Of a stretch of 64,000 nucleotides of DNA, positions 40,941 to 60,009 are shown piece by piece; within the stretch, counting starts at the first letter, position 1, and the number at the start of each line of letters is the position of its first letter. The notes below the pieces were generated by a model. The model worked only from the letters and a program-made list of their open reading frames with translations, ran no database searches and had not been told where the DNA came from. This DNA comes from Maylandia zebra (lineage: Eukaryota; Chordata; Actinopteri; Cichliformes; Cichlidae): the NCBI RefSeq assembly GCF_041146795.1, contig NC_135167.1, forward strand, positions 4,988,454 to 5,052,453, written 5' to 3'. Both the position numbers and the translations under genes were made by a program.

Positions 40941-41698
40941 CCCACAAGCCATGTGGGGGACACAGCAAACATGTGGAAGAAGGTGCTCTGGTCAGATGAG
41001 ACCAAAATGGAACTTTTTGGCCAAAATGCAAAACACTGTGTGGCGGAAAACTAACACTGCACATCACTCTGAACGCACCATCCACACTGTCAAATATGGT
41101 GGTGGCAGCATCATGCTCTGGGGGTGCTTCTCTTCAGCAGGGACAGGAAGCTGGTCAGAGTTGATGGGAAGATGGATGGAGCCAAATACAGGGCAATCTT
41201 GGAAGAAAACCTCTTGGAGTCTGCAAAAGACTTGAGACTGGGGCGGAGGTTCACCTTCCAGCAGGACAACGACCCTAAACATAAAGCCAGGGCAACAATG
41301 GGATGGTTTAAAACAAAACATATCCATGTGTTAGAATTGCCCAGTCAAAGTCCAGATCTAAATCCAATCGAGAATCTGTGACAAGATCTGAAAACTGCTG
41401 TTCACAGACACTGTCCATCTAATCTGACTGAGCTGGAGCTGTTTTGCAAAGAAGAATGGGCAAAGATTTCAGTCTCTAGATGTGCAAAGCTGGTAGAGAC
41501 AGACCCTAAAAGACTGGCAGCTGGAATTGCAGCAAAAGGTGGTTCTACAAAGTATTAGTGATGGGTCGGTCGCGAACGAAATGGCTCTAGAGCCGGCTCT
41601 TCGACGTGAACGACGCGAGCCGGCTCCTTATCTCGAGCAGCAGAGTGAAGCTGACCCCCCACCCACTTGAAACGTAAAGGCAAATAGGCGGAGCGGTT

Positions 41699-42722
41699 AG
41701 TGCTACGTTTGTGCTGATTTGTGCAGGTAAAATTAGCGTTTGTGCTGCTACGGTTTCCGAGATATTAAACTTTATTTATAGGTCATTCAAAGGTCACCAT
41801 CCCCCCAGACTGCTCCAAAACAAACCAAAATGGTCTACTTTTTTAGTGCTACGTTTGTGCTGGTTTGTGCAGGTAAAATTAGCGTTTGTGCTGCTACAGT
41901 ATCTGAGATATTAAAAGTTATATTTTTTGCTGATGACATCACCATCCCCCCAGACTGCTCCAAAACAAACCAAAATGGTCTACTTTTTTAGTGCTACGTT
42001 TGTGCAGATTTGTGCAGGTAAAATTAGCGTTTGTGCTGCTACGGTTTCCGAGATATTAAACTTTATTTTATAGGTCATTCAAAGGTCACCATCCCCCCAG
42101 ACTGCTCCAAAACGGGCCAAAATGGTCTACTTTTTTAGTGCTACGTTTGTGCAGATTTGTGCAGGTAAAATTAGCGTTTGTGCTGCTTCTGTTTTAAAGA
42201 TATTAATGAAAATGTAAAGGTCAACCAGCCCCCCCACATTACCCAAATCCAACAAAAGTGGTATCAAACGTTTGTGCTACGTTTGTGCTGGTTTGTGCTG
42301 CTATCATTTTAAAGATATTAATAACAATTTCTAGAGGTCATCAGAGGTCAACCAGCCCCCCCACATTAATTAAATCAAACAAAATGGGTGTCAATCAACT
42401 GTGCTACGTTTGTGCTGGTTTGTGCTGCTAAAATTTTCGTTTGTGCTGCTTCTGTTTTAAAGATATTAATGAAAATGTAAAGGTCAAAAGGTCAACCAGC
42501 CCCCCCACATTACCCAAATCCAACAAAAGTGGTATCAAACGTTTGTGCTACGTTTGTGCTGCAGAAATTTTTGTTTGTGCCGTTATTATTTTAAAGATAT
42601 TAACAAAAATTTCTAGAGGTCAACCAGCCCCCCCATATTAATGGAATCAAACAAAATGGATGTCAAACGTTTGTGCTGGTTTGTGCTGCAAAAATGTTTG
42701 TTTGTGCTGCTAACATTTTAAA
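41699..42722 (+). repeat. Left-arm tandem array (GTTTGTGCTG-rich units)
   Basis: Units of roughly 100-150 bp share the header GTGCTACGTTTGTGCTGGTT and an internal GTTTGTGCTGCT, then ATATTAA. Two unit types follow each other. The outer type (41.70-42.13 kb) carries CCCCCCAGACTGCTCCAAAA; the inner type (42.13-42.72 kb) carries AGGTCAACCAGCCCCCCCAC. The outer type is repeated three times here but once in the right arm, so the left arm has expanded. Confidence 0.9.
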
Positions 42723-42723
42723 A

Positions 42724-42893
42724 TGTTTAATAAAATAACGTCTTGATGCGTGCTTAATCATCCAGGTAAGTAAATCCCAAAAGGTTGATTCTGTTCATCT
42801 GGACATTTTCAGTTGGAGAAACGTTTCGTCACTCATCCAAGTGACTTCTTCAGTCTCAGCTGACTGCAGGTTTCCCCAACCTTATAAACACCC
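42724..42893 (-). mobile_element. Penelope-like terminal sequence, inverted copy
   Basis: The reverse complement of the segment at about 44880-45046, with few differences. It contains, on the minus strand, the blocks CTGAAGAAGTCACTTGGATG and AGTGACGAAACGTTTCTCC. I associate this kind of sequence with the terminal repeats of fish Penelope-like elements, supported by the Penelope-type reverse transcriptase trace at about 43030-43220. Inverted terminal copies are a known habit of this group. Confidence 0.65.
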
Positions 42894-43029
42894 GTGAGTG
42901 AAGTTGCCCCCCCTACCTTCTTCAAATCGAACAAAATTGATGTCAAACATTTGTCCTGCAAATTATTTTGTTTGTGCAGGTTATGTTTCCCTAATTTTAT
43001 AAACAGTACATGTACAGTGAGAGAGAGAT

Positions 43030-43225
43030 GTTACATCTGTCTTCACTTGCATCCCAGACATAGAAGCGTTGGAGGTCGTTCATAAGAGATTACAGGATCA
43101 TCCCAACCTCAGCAACAGGACCACTCTCAGCACTGATCAGTTGTGTTTGCTTTTGGAACTGTCTTAATTCCACCTATTTTGCATAAGGGTCAGTACAGGC
43201 AGAAATCTAGGTGTGCCATGGGTTC
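43030..43225 (+). pseudogene. Penelope-like reverse transcriptase fragment
   Basis: Conceptual translation gives VFTCIPDIEALEVVHKRLQD, then LSNRTTLSTDQLCLLLEL, and after breaks YRQKSRCAMGS. This follows the order of Penelope reverse transcriptase motifs (FTxIP, LLxLCLxxTYF, YxQxxGxAMGSP). The frame is interrupted by a stop, and the match ends abruptly where Rex1-like sequence begins near 43225. Confidence 0.65.
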
Positions 43226-44700
43226 CCACAGGCCCCTGGTCAAAGTCACCAAACCAGTTCGTAAGCAGGTACAGGTGTGGCCAGAAGGGTCCTCAGAGGC
43301 ACTGCTTTTCCACCACAGGCCGCCACACACGACAACACCACAGACTTTCAGGAATATACAGAAACTGTCACTGCCTACATCCCAAAATGCATCGATGATG
43401 TCACAGAGACCAGGACTATCACTGTCTGGGCCAATCAGAAACCATGGCTCACAGGTCAGGTTTAAATGCTCCTAAAGTTGAAAAATGCAAGCCTTCAGAG
43501 CCGGGAATTAGGTGAGTCTAAGAACAGCAAGGGCAAACCTGTCACGTGGCATCAGCTACAGCAAAGCTTCAGCGACAGCAGAGATACTTGGAGGCAGTGG
43601 CAAGGAATACAAACCATCACAGACTACAAGCCCACTCTACAGACCGTGGTGACACAATCCCCAGACAGTGTGTGGAGATCCCTCCACCATCATTACTGAA
43701 CCCAAGAAGTCATCTATCTCCTGCTTTAAGGACTACCGTCCTGTCAAACTCACCTCCATCATTATTAAGTTAAGTGCTTTGAACGGTTAGTCATGCATCA
43801 AATCAAATTATTGCTTTCCCCCAACCTGGATCCATTTCAGTTCACATACCGGTCAAAACGCTCAACCGATGATGGAATTTCAACTGCCCCTCACTCAGCC
43901 CTCACACATCTGAACACTAGAGACTCATATGTCAGAGTGCTGTTCATAGACTTCAGTTCAGCATTCAACACCATCATTCCCCAGCAACTCATTCACAAAC
44001 TGGATCTGCTGGGGATCAGCACCTTGCTGTATAACGGGCTGCTAGATTTCTTGACAGGAAGACAGCAGACAGTACGGGTCAACAGCAACACCTCCAGCCC
44101 AAGAACACGGAATACGGGGGCTACCCAAGGATGTGTGTTGAGCTCCCTTCTCTTCACTCTGCTGACCCACGACGAGATCTACTACAGGGGTGAAGTTAAC
44201 CATCTGCCAGAGTGGTACAGCAACAACAACCTGTCCCTGAATGTGGAGAAGACCAACAGTGACTCTACTTCCTCTGCAAACTGAGAAGCACAAGAGATTC
44301 AACCCCCATTATGAGCACCTTTTACAGAGGCACAGTTGAGAGTATCCTCACCAGCTGCATCACTGGTGTGGTATGACTCCTGCATTGGGTTCTGCAGGAA
44401 AAAATGACAACGGGTAGTGAGAGCAGCCGAGAGCATTGTGGGGACCTCTCTTGCCTCCCTCCCCAGGAGATCTACTGCACCTGCCTCATCTGGAAGGTCG
44501 TCTCCATTACAGGTGACTCCACTCATCCCTTCAACAGCGTCTTCAGTTTGCTGCCATCAGGAAGGATACTGAAGAGCCTCCGGGGCAGAACCAGCAGACT
44601 GAGAGACAGCTTCGTCCATCGGGCTGTCAGGATGCTGACCATCTCTGGATCGAGAAGGGGGGCCCAAGGGTACATCTTTCGCCATCCTACAATGCTGTGA
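43226..44700 (+). pseudogene. Degenerate Rex1-like LINE reverse transcriptase
   Basis: Traces in several frames include [89 protein letters not shown], then SLLPSGRILKSLRGRTSRLR. It is a Rex1-like family different from copies A and B, with internal deletions (the FADD region is missing after LTHD) and frameshifts. It sits in the core of the foldback element. Confidence 0.75.
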
Positions 44701-44879
44701 TTGTAGCCATTCCCCACTTTCTGTGAATGGTACTCATGGCCATTGATCAATAGGCTTTGATTAGTTGTCATTGATCAATGGTCATAAGAATTTGCATACT
44801 AACAATCATGGAATTAACCCCCCGGCACATTGTTCATTCAGTGGCGCTAGTTTCCTTCACTATGCAAATGTACTGTTTA

Positions 44880-45046
44880 TATGGTTGGGGAAACCTACAG
44901 TCAGCTGAGACTGAAGAAGTCACTTGGATGAGTGACGAAACGTTTCTCCAACTGAAAATGTCCAGATGAACAGAATCAACCTTTTGGGATTTACTTACCT
45001 GGATGATTAAGCACGCATCAAGACGTTATTTTATTAAACATTTTAA
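44880..45046 (+). mobile_element. Penelope-like terminal sequence, direct copy
   Basis: Partner of 42724-42893 in opposite orientation. It includes a hammerhead-like block at 44907-44948: GAGA, CTGAAGA, an extra A, GTCAC, an 8-base loop, GTGAC, GAAA, then CGTTTCTC. GTCAC and GTGAC are complementary, as are GAGA and TCTC. Sequence from about 44700, just upstream, probably belongs to the same terminal repeat. Confidence 0.65.
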
Positions 45047-45690
45047 AATGTTAGCAGCACAAACAAACATTTTTGCAGCACAAACCAGCACAAACGTTTG
45101 ACATCCATTTTGTTTGATTCCATTAATATTGGGGGGCTGGTTGACCTCTAGAAATTTTTGTTAATATCTTTAAAATAATAACGGCACAAACAAAAATTTC
45201 TGCAGCACAAACCAGCACAAACGTAGCACAAACGTTTGATACCACTTTTGTTGGATTTGGGTAATGTGGGGGGGCTGGTTGACCTTTTGACCTTTACATT
45301 TTCATTAATATCTTTAAAACAGAAGCAGCACAAACGAAAATTTTAGCAGCACAAACCAGCACAAACGTAGCACAGTTGATTGACACCCATTTTGTTTGAT
45401 TTAATTAATGTGGGGGGGCTGGTTGACCTCTGATGACCTCTAGAAATTGTTATTAATATCTTTAAAATGATAGCAGCACAAACGAAAATCTTTGCAGCAC
45501 AAACCAGCACAAACGTAGCACTAAAAAAGTAGACCATTTTGGCCCGTTTTGGAGCAGTCTGGGGGGATGGTGACCTTTGAATGACCTATAAAATAAAGTT
45601 TAATATCTCGGAAACCGTAGCAGCACAAACGCTAATTTTACCTGCACAAATCAGCACAAACGTAGCACTAACCGCTCCGCCTATTTGCCT
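45047..45690 (-). repeat. Right-arm tandem array, inverted
   Basis: Inverted counterpart of the left-arm array, with CAGCACAAACGTAGCAC-type units. It has the inner unit type and one copy of the outer type, so it is about 400 bp shorter than the left arm. Confidence 0.9.
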
Positions 45691-46231
45691 TTACGTTTCA
45701 AGTGGGTGGGGGGTCAGCTTCACTCTGCTATCACGAGCCGGTTTTTTTGTTTGTTTGTTTTTTTTCTTTCTTTCTCTCACCCTCTCTCTCGCGCTTTTTT
45801 TCCGCTTCATTCAGCACGCGAGCCTTGTGCTTTACGCTGGGCAGAGGGGGGAGGGGCGGTAGTTACACTCAGTAGCACAGGAACAGAGCAGGAGGGAGAG
45901 ACAGAGAAAGAGCCAGGGATAACAACGTCACATTAGAAAGGTATAGTAATCATCCACAACTATTTTCAGTTGCAGATGATAAAGGATTGAGAAAGTTTAT
46001 TCATGCAGGTCCATATGACAGACAATATGCATGTTCTTTTTGTTTTCATATTATAATTTATATTTAATTGTGTTGTGGTTTGCAGTGTTTTGTGTTGTTT
46101 CACTTTAAATTTGTAAAAGGAAAAAGCTGAAAATTTAAATAGTTAAAAATTGAAATGTGAATAGTTGACTTTTGTATTATATGATTTATTTATTACATTT
46201 TATGTGGAGTGAATAAATAAAAGTATATTTA

Positions 46232-46689
46232 CGGTGGCCCCTACAGACAAAGCACATACAAACTTCAAATCACGTACAAACCCTGAAGCACGTACAAACT
46301 CCAAAACACATAAAAAAACACGTACAAACTCCAAAACACGTATAAACTCCAAAATACGTATAAACTCCGAAGCACATAAAAACTCAAAACACGTACAAAA
46401 GGCAACAGAAGTGCTCCAGGATGCTAGGGGCAGTGTTGAACTTTTGTTACCTAGTGGCTACACAAGCCAGCCAGTACCAACGACCGGATTTGGTTTCTGG
46501 TAAAAACTGTTTTTTTATTATTTGACTATATATGAATGCTTGTGTATAAATACACAAACAATACACATATGCTTTCATGCTTTCAATTGTGTAATTTAAG
46601 TGATCTAGGTAGCTCTGTTTTGGAAGTTCAGTTCATGCTAGAAATGTGTTTTGGAGTTTGTACGTGTTTTGTCTCTAGGGGCCACTGCA
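46232..46689. mobile_element. Small hAT-type MITE with minisatellite core
   Basis: TATATTTA lies at 46224-46231 and again at 46690-46697. The ends are inverted: GGTGGCCCCTACAGACAAAG at the left and the complement of CAGTGGCCCCTAGAGACAAA at the right. Inside, a minisatellite of about 19 bp (CACGTACAAACTCCAAAA with variants, about 46250-46400) extends the left end. It is nested in the hAT element 41556-46852. Confidence 0.75.

Positions 46690-54821: not shown

Positions 54822-60009
<5,188 letters not shown>

Follow-up and report, generated by a model that had tools for sequence, protein, structure and literature searches.

Known foldback systems and the element in the window

FB and FB-NOF elements of Drosophila have arms built of repeat arrays, carry one large gene in some copies and make 9-bp target duplications. 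Mutator-like elements (MULEs) duplicate about 8–11 bp, typically 9 bp, and have a DDE triad with a C/D(2)H motif. In this study, we analysed a 64,000-nucleotide stretch of Maylandia zebra DNA (NC_135167.1, positions 4,988,454 to 5,052,453 of the forward strand; hereafter the window), which contains a 4091-bp foldback element, copy L010, at 41639..45729 on the + strand. The system to which L010 belongs works like the FB type, with inverted arms of tandem subrepeats and duplications of constant length, and that length (9 bp) is of the MULE type. Our reading, to which we give a probability of about 0.8, is that L010 is a transposase-less foldback transposon with composite arms, that it was moved in trans by a protein of a family with a 1054-aa reading frame, and that it later spread.

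The closest known anatomies are those of Rehavkus-1_TC and FB-NOF, and Rehavkus-1_TC is the nearest described element that we found. In the red flour beetle, the Repbase family Rehavkus-1_TC is reported to have inverted termini of 164-bp satellite units, mostly five and eight monomers (part of PMC10218199), and Rehavkus has been grouped with MULEs by others, with hosts restricted to insects and annelids (part of PMC6446971). The present family shares the satellite-like tandem units in long terminal inverted repeats (TIRs), here of about 147 bp with up to nine counted; unlike Rehavkus-1_TC, it lives in a vertebrate and no PHD finger was detected in it, and the likeness is one of anatomy. The same holds for FB and FB-NOF, which share the foldback arms of repeat arrays, the gene-bearing copies and the 9-bp duplications; FB-NOF is called non-autonomous in a title in the reference list of PMC8277862. 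Tm1, a Mutator/foldback family of root-knot nematodes, is described in part of PMC3169594 with duplications of 8–10 bp (9 bp in 45/53) and composite TIRs of variable repeat number, in a copy with a transposase and in copies without. It resembles the present family in its mostly 9-bp duplications, variable repeat arms and two kinds of copies, whereas its units are of about 14 bp and its transposase is of the Phantom type; no MULE or FLYWCH match was obtained here. Galileo of Drosophila also has long, internally repetitive arms, with footprints of binding sites for a transposase domain in the arm repeats, but belongs to the P-element superfamily with a THAP domain (part of PMC3688188), and none was detected here. 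In teleosts, the repeat label 'MULE-NOF' has been used, with 1159 copies in one table column (PMC4746887, PMC11184842); it is a class label for NOF-like elements in fish, and those passages do not describe structure, gene or foldback arms.

The results showed that L010 is whole and non-autonomous. An initial annotation had placed it at 41638..45728; the element is real, and its position there was one base too far left. It is flanked on the + strand by the 9-bp copies ATCTCGAGC (41630..41638) and ATCACGAGC (45730..45738), which agree at 8/9 bases and correspond to a repeat first written, one base out of register, as TATCWCGAG. The left TIR, starting AGCAGAGTGAAGCTGACCCCCC (41639..41777, + strand), is 100% complementary to the right TIR (45591..45729, − strand); the match of the ends, first noted over 80 bp or more, is perfect over the outermost 139 bp. 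The other arm blocks of 339, 292 and 226 nt (857 nt in total) are 99, 97 and 93% complementary.

On the + strand, the outer part of the left arm has three units of type A, each about 147 bp long (41655..42092) and 98–99% identical to end units of the 1054-aa-type copies L019 and L023, followed by a 136-bp A/B junction unit (42093..42228), which by eye has an A-like start and a B-like end and is 99% identical to units of L011, L021 and L031. The inner (type B) units follow (42229..42735), of which winL_5 and winL_4 are 99% and 96% identical to array units of L037, a copy of a second family. The innermost left arm (42552..42890) pairs with the innermost right arm (44874..45212, − strand) at 99% over 339 nt, and a sequence resembling the second-family end, GTGAGTGAAGTTGCCCCCCC, lies inside the element (42894..42990). 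The core holds a reverse-transcriptase relic of a retroelement (43769..44284; PF00078 RVT_1, E=3.3e-15), which adjoins the region used as core probe (43130-43530). On the − strand, the right arm has type B units (45137..45418), a 148-bp A/B junction unit, winR_1 (45419..45566), with a join that differs from the left one and at most 90% identity to units of other loci, and a single type A unit (45567..45713). By regular expression, which missed some diverged units, the unit order was A-A-A-B-B-B-B on the left and A-B-B-B on the right. The two unit types, their mirror order and the excess of outer units on the left (three A against one A) had thus been recognised correctly at the outset, when their separate family origin could not be seen.

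A recent transposon family and its probable transposase

We searched the genome (962 Mb, 63 contigs) with the terminal probe and scored the best 40 of 84 candidates. In this genome, 76 matches to the MHC class I domain were counted, compared with none in 14 control genomes, as befits a jawed vertebrate, and its size and repeat content suggest a fish. All matches listed were 99–100% identical, and the end pattern, allowing at most two mismatches, occurred 75 times (41 on the + and 34 on the − strand), against 0 for the reversed control. Around the 40 probe matches, 28 loci were retrieved, of which 21 had two facing ends and 7 a single end. Together with four pairs read from short flanks, the 21 full loci gave 25 first-family end pairs, and their 9-bp duplications were perfect in 13, had one mismatch in five (L010, L012, L020, L023 and L026) and were absent in seven. 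Other lengths, tried from 4 to 13 bp in 21 pairs, gave no consistent match across copies. The genome search proposed in the initial annotation thus gave consistent ends and 9-bp duplications with at most one mismatch in 18/25 pairs; differing ends or inconsistent duplications, named there as signs of an accident of this locus, were looked for and did not emerge.

Empty relatives of the target sites were found among the retrieved loci for 5 of the 23 sites tested in both families. The best, for L053/L054, lies in a flank of L021, where 36/36 bp match and the 9-mer is present once; the others were 93.7% (L016), 94.4% (L060), 87% (L091) and, for the L010 site in the arms flanking L013, 81–83% identical. 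A 401-bp core probe (43130-43530) gave at least nine full-score matches, L010 included, among the best 40 of 286 candidates scored. Copies of the L010 type are recent, because the mean divergence of the single-copy core was just 0.49% among 11 copies with duplications. These findings confirm that the element represents a real, well-formed family of mobile foldback transposons. No paper title describing it was found in literature searches, Repbase and Dfam lying outside the search; one protein query found no relatives in viral contigs, and plasmid records gave no match.

Five copies (L013, L019, L023, L032 and L034) have the same ends as L010 and in common an internal region of about 5 kb that differs from that of L010. 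In L019, this region holds a single open frame of 1054 codons from ATG, so the search for a longer copy with a transposase, also proposed earlier, led to the same ends around a long, transposase-type frame. A genome search with the 1054-aa protein gave at least 58 matches (best 44 of 154 candidates scored); among the matches listed, two copies, L019 and C3:59485820 (L040), were uninterrupted over all 1054 codons. In L023, which has ends and an 8/9 duplication, the frame falls into two parts of 858 and 210 codons, and it is broken in a C20 copy with the same ends and the perfect duplication CACTTTCTG.

By eye, DDE-like motifs were assigned at D334 (CFDATG) and D404 (SDFSLA), with VEAEF at 621, about 218 aa from the second D, offering the candidate E and a D(2)H-like VDVAH lying between these two at 449. 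Counterparts of CFDATG, SDFSLA, VDVAH and VEAEF aligned in the second family, also on assignment by eye, and a basic stretch, PPKKRKR, lies at 727. Between the families, dN/dS was 0.13–0.18 in the N-terminal part, 0.11–0.14 in the DDE region and 0.17–0.30 in the protease-like region described below. These features suggest that the 1054-aa protein is probably the transposase for these ends. A search for the MULE domain PF10551 in this protein at E<=1 found none, a whole-protein alignment of nine members gave no MULE match among the four Pfam families listed, and Pfam scans of protein and alignment found neither a THAP nor a FLYWCH domain. Nor did a PHD finger match at E<=1, a threshold that a diverged finger could escape. 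We refrain from filing the family as Rehavkus or MULE, because these searches detected neither PF10551 nor a PHD finger. Of the Mutator-like transposase first suggested for L010, the 9-bp duplication and the arm anatomy fit, and a Pfam transposase match at E<=1 is lacking.

The C-terminal ~280 residues showed a weak resemblance to ubiquitin-specific proteases (USPs). UCH (PF00443) was matched by 5/5 members of a domain alignment, with a best E of 0.0084, which falls short of the Pfam cut-off, and by 3/5 members of another domain alignment and 2/9 of the whole-protein alignment. Peptidase_C98 was matched by 2/5 members of the first of these alignments and was the sole match for one second-family member. 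Unrelated models (Mus7, ZFYVE26 repeats and SopD) reached E values of 0.07–0.1 in these scans, a small margin for UCH. In the Protein Data Bank (PDB) at E<=10, three of four rows for the domain were USP4/USP8 (E 1.4–2.3), behind an RNA polymerase subunit (E 1.2) that is surely a chance match; a smaller domain alignment gave USPs in 3/3 rows (E 1.6–3.6). The USP8 alignment covers the Cys box, not significant by itself, and the His box, and both boxes are kept between the two families. The probable transposase may therefore carry a ubiquitin-protease-like tail. Ubiquitin/SUMO protease domains on transposases are described in the cited passages of PMC2836005 for Ginger1 (OTU or Ulp1), Mutator (Ulp1) and a Trichomonas transposase_11 (C19). 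These would be parallels in having a ubiquitin-type cysteine protease domain on a transposase, which in Ginger1 is C-terminal; compared with that group as described there, the resemblance here is weak, to USP/C19-C98, and lies on a foldback-family protein.

Elsewhere in the genome, PF10551 matched above the cut-off at no fewer than 24 places (C20:16066821 and C6:27352348 among them), in open frames of up to 312 codons. These matches, away from the 1054-aa protein, are another MULE-type family.

Composite arms, motif block and alternative explanations

From its tip towards the core, each arm has the order A(n)B(m). Across 21 copies, by the same regular expression, there were 0–5 A units per arm; the 14 copies with the L010 core had 1–5 B units per arm, with four in 18/28 arms, and the five frame-bearing copies had 0–2 A and 0–1 B units. 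The A units of L010 are 98–99% identical to the end units of frame-bearing copies. For its B units, identity to array units of the second family (L037), whose protein is about 58% identical to the 1054-aa protein, reaches 99%. Second-family ends (ATGTGAGTGAAGTTGG...) gave 190 genome matches against 0 in the control and have 9-bp duplications of their own. The L010 core was found between paired second-family ends at eight places: C2:26915157, C3:6391456, C3:6976570, C3:7170025, C3:7519814, C3:61606806, C7:68227405 and C22:39232188. Those four on C3 that lie between 6.39 and 7.52 Mb have common flanks and represent one duplicated segment. As judged from these sequences, L010 is a composite with two unit types from two transposon families, because its core also sits between second-family ends alone. 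To our knowledge, no FB element has composite arms from two families.

The 136-bp junction unit is 98–100% identical among L011, L021, L031 and the frame-bearing L023, and 99% identical to that in the left arm of L010. This near-identity across copies points to one joining event. L010 would have originated as an older second-family foldback element that acquired first-family ends, and in this way a transposon could change owner by exchanging its end arrays. The differences between arms amount to whole units, as would be expected from unequal exchange in register. The two arms of the same copy were barely more alike than randomly paired arms (outer P=0.036, inner P=0.069), and the mate arm was the nearest in 15/34 outer and 5/28 inner comparisons; homogenisation between the arms of a copy is thus not supported.

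The A and B consensuses are both 147 bp long, with TTTGTGC at 53, 63 and 84. When frame-bearing members of both families were compared, the GTTTGTGC motif block was identical at 43/47 positions, compared with 52/95 in the spacers (Fisher P=4e-6), and with more units at 42/47 compared with 57/99 (P=6e-5); the block boundaries were drawn after the alignment had been viewed. Such conservation resembles that of putative transposase-binding sites and, kept in two families, lends indirect support to the early suggestion that the arrays may be transposase-binding repeats. The 1054-aa protein would most likely recognise the repeated GTTTGTGC motifs in the ~147-bp arm units, pair both ends, excise the element and insert it with a 9-bp staggered cut. 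Outer units of the 1054-aa family would have been joined onto an older foldback element of the sister family, giving it ends usable by the first transposase, and copies would then have spread. Three points in this are inferences, namely that the protein is the catalyst, that it binds the units and that the joining came in this order.

We weighed this reading against three others. That the ends and duplication of L010 are a local accident, by chance palindrome or local duplication, is scarcely credible: nothing in favour of it was found, other than that the L010 duplication has one mismatch, and it is ruled out by the 75 ends against 0 in the control and by duplications in differing flanks, 18 of them with no more than one mismatch, along with the empty site relatives. 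It is unlikely, if by no means negligible, that the transposase is from a DDE superfamily of its own, outside MULE/Rehavkus, the 9-bp duplication and satellite-like arms being convergent. VDVAH between the second D and the E speaks against such a superfamily, fitting MULE/Rehavkus by the C/D(2)H motif rule, and so do the 9-bp duplications with minisatellite arms (PMC6446971 and PMC10218199, as far as the cited passages go); on the other side stand the long distance from D404 to VEAEF, the lack of PF10551 or any other Pfam transposase match and, in the cited part of PMC3688188, the rise of Galileo foldback arms within the P superfamily. We consider it rather unlikely that the arrays have no role in transposition, being a satellite expanded by unequal exchange in an end region, in which the GTTTGTGC block was kept by chance or by exchange between the families. 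Unit number does vary freely (0–5 for A and 0–5 for B per arm across 21 copies), with just 0–2 A units per arm where the frame is present; A and B units clearly recombine, and the block was delimited with the alignment in view. Exchange would homogenise the spacers too, however, whereas conservation is concentrated in the block and the motif spacing is the same in both consensuses; binding by the Galileo THAP domain in arm repeats offers a precedent (part of PMC3688188).

Several observations weigh against movement of L010 in trans by a 1054-aa-family protein. A single end was found at 7/28 retrieved loci, and the duplication is absent in 7/25 pairs (L013, L015, L019, L021, L022, L033 and L034). 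L019 has both ends, yet only 6/9 flanking bases are alike, and L040, with its uninterrupted frame, has a damaged left end; among the copies read, none combined an intact frame, ends and a clean duplication. The 1054-aa protein matched no Pfam family at E<=1, and hence no transposase domain, and as a whole it matched no PDB chain. Between the families dS is 1.3–2.6, near saturation, so the dN/dS values are rough, and between L019 and L040, with few changes, dN/dS ranges from 0.10 in the protease-like domain to 0.79 in the N-terminal part, the latter being the unfavourable value.

If this reading is right, a single vertebrate genome houses both partners of a foldback system, namely recent non-autonomous copies and uninterrupted frames of a probable transposase. 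The absence of MULEs from vertebrates and the meaning of very long, variable MULE TIRs are left open in the cited passages of PMC6446971.

Two side results concern the second family. Within C3:6391426-7523296, five of its copies have the same flanks (30 bp read) and the duplication CAGCAAAAC, and therefore this segment was duplicated after insertion. The genome search with the 1054-aa protein had hinted at a third family (~53% identical); the single locus examined for it, C3:49753450-49758520, proved to be a second-family copy that is disrupted, and there the third family is rejected.

Mismatches in the target duplications and rearrangements

For the second family, we read 21 end pairs chosen among the places listed (190 ends in total). 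They represented 12 distinct sites, one site recurring in five duplicated copies and another set of flanks in six. Duplications were perfect at five sites (that of L101/L102, with a mutated end, being read by eye), had one mismatch at three (L060/L061, L076/L077 and L095/L096) and were absent at four. With pairs of two or more mismatches excluded, single mismatches occurred in 8 among 26 target duplications of both families (5/18 in the first family and three in the second). All eight had a pyrimidine in the left copy and a purine in the right (four T/A, two C/G, one T/G and one C/A), a class that is the same whichever strand is read. They lie at positions 3, 4, 4, 5, 6, 6, 6 and 6 of the 9 bp, with central clustering at P=0.006. 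The 8/8 agreement has P=2.4e-6 under the core spectrum (29 transitions and 19 transversions) and P=1.5e-4 under equal changes. The rule was suggested by the first five mismatches; the last three, read later, fitted it in 3/3 cases (P=0.008 under the core spectrum or 0.037 under equal changes). The nearest excluded pair, L019, has T/A, C/G and A/C, and A/C does not fit the class.

We tentatively propose, while thinking it rather doubtful, that the transposase of both families inserts preferentially into mispaired DNA. Each flank copy would be templated by one target strand, so a single mismatch would record a purine–purine mispair (A:A, G:G or A:G) close to the centre of the stagger of 9 bp, for instance in a recombination heteroduplex. 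Misinsertion of a pyrimidine opposite a pyrimidine during gap filling also fits; mispair insertion is favoured over it because the mismatches are central. The empty relative of L060 has the right-hand base, consistent with both mechanisms, and the diverged empty relative of L010 has a G, unlike either copy of the duplication. Ordinary mutation after insertion has a real chance, short of an even one, of accounting for the mismatches: the counts are few (8), the class was noticed after the first five, and second-family copies may be older. Later mutation is harder to reconcile with 0/8 transitions, compared with 29/48 biallelic core sites, with the fit of the three mismatches found later, and with the 11 low-divergence first-family copies, in which four mismatches were observed against 0.48 expected (P=0.0015). 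In phage Mu, a mismatch marks the centre of the site to which strand transfer is directed, and the cited part of that work employed a G:G mismatch (PMC5357137). If the proposal is true, the duplications would be a natural trace, in a eukaryotic genome, of the mismatch-targeted transposition that phage Mu shows in vitro, and the pattern, if it holds, would offer a way to read the state of the target DNA at the moment of insertion. Of all the findings, this pattern most deserves to be tested.

Rearrangements can arise from very long inverted arms, and inverted copies of the flank were found beside the element at two places. The frame-bearing copy L013 (with L058 and L059; C18:2776655-2784916) lies at the exact centre of an inverted flank duplication of 1.35 kb, 98.5% identical, whose left border is marked by a 26-bp fragment of a family end. 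A template switch between inverted ends fits this structure, and no such duplication was present in the other 20 copies tested, within the flanks retrieved. In a second-family copy (L083, L084 and L085; C4:19211593-19215364), the 28 bp read beside an inner end repeat the left flank in reverse complement.

The surroundings of L010 (41557-41629 and 45739-46729) are another repeat, starting AGTGATGGGTCGGTCGCGAACGAA, which may be of hAT-type origin, and parts of the flanks on both sides match the flanks of L013. A minisatellite of about 18 bp (CAAAACACGTACAAACTC) lies at 46248-46399, immediately right of the element, and long, perfect CA/AC dinucleotide runs occur at 57127-57261 and 58288-58378.

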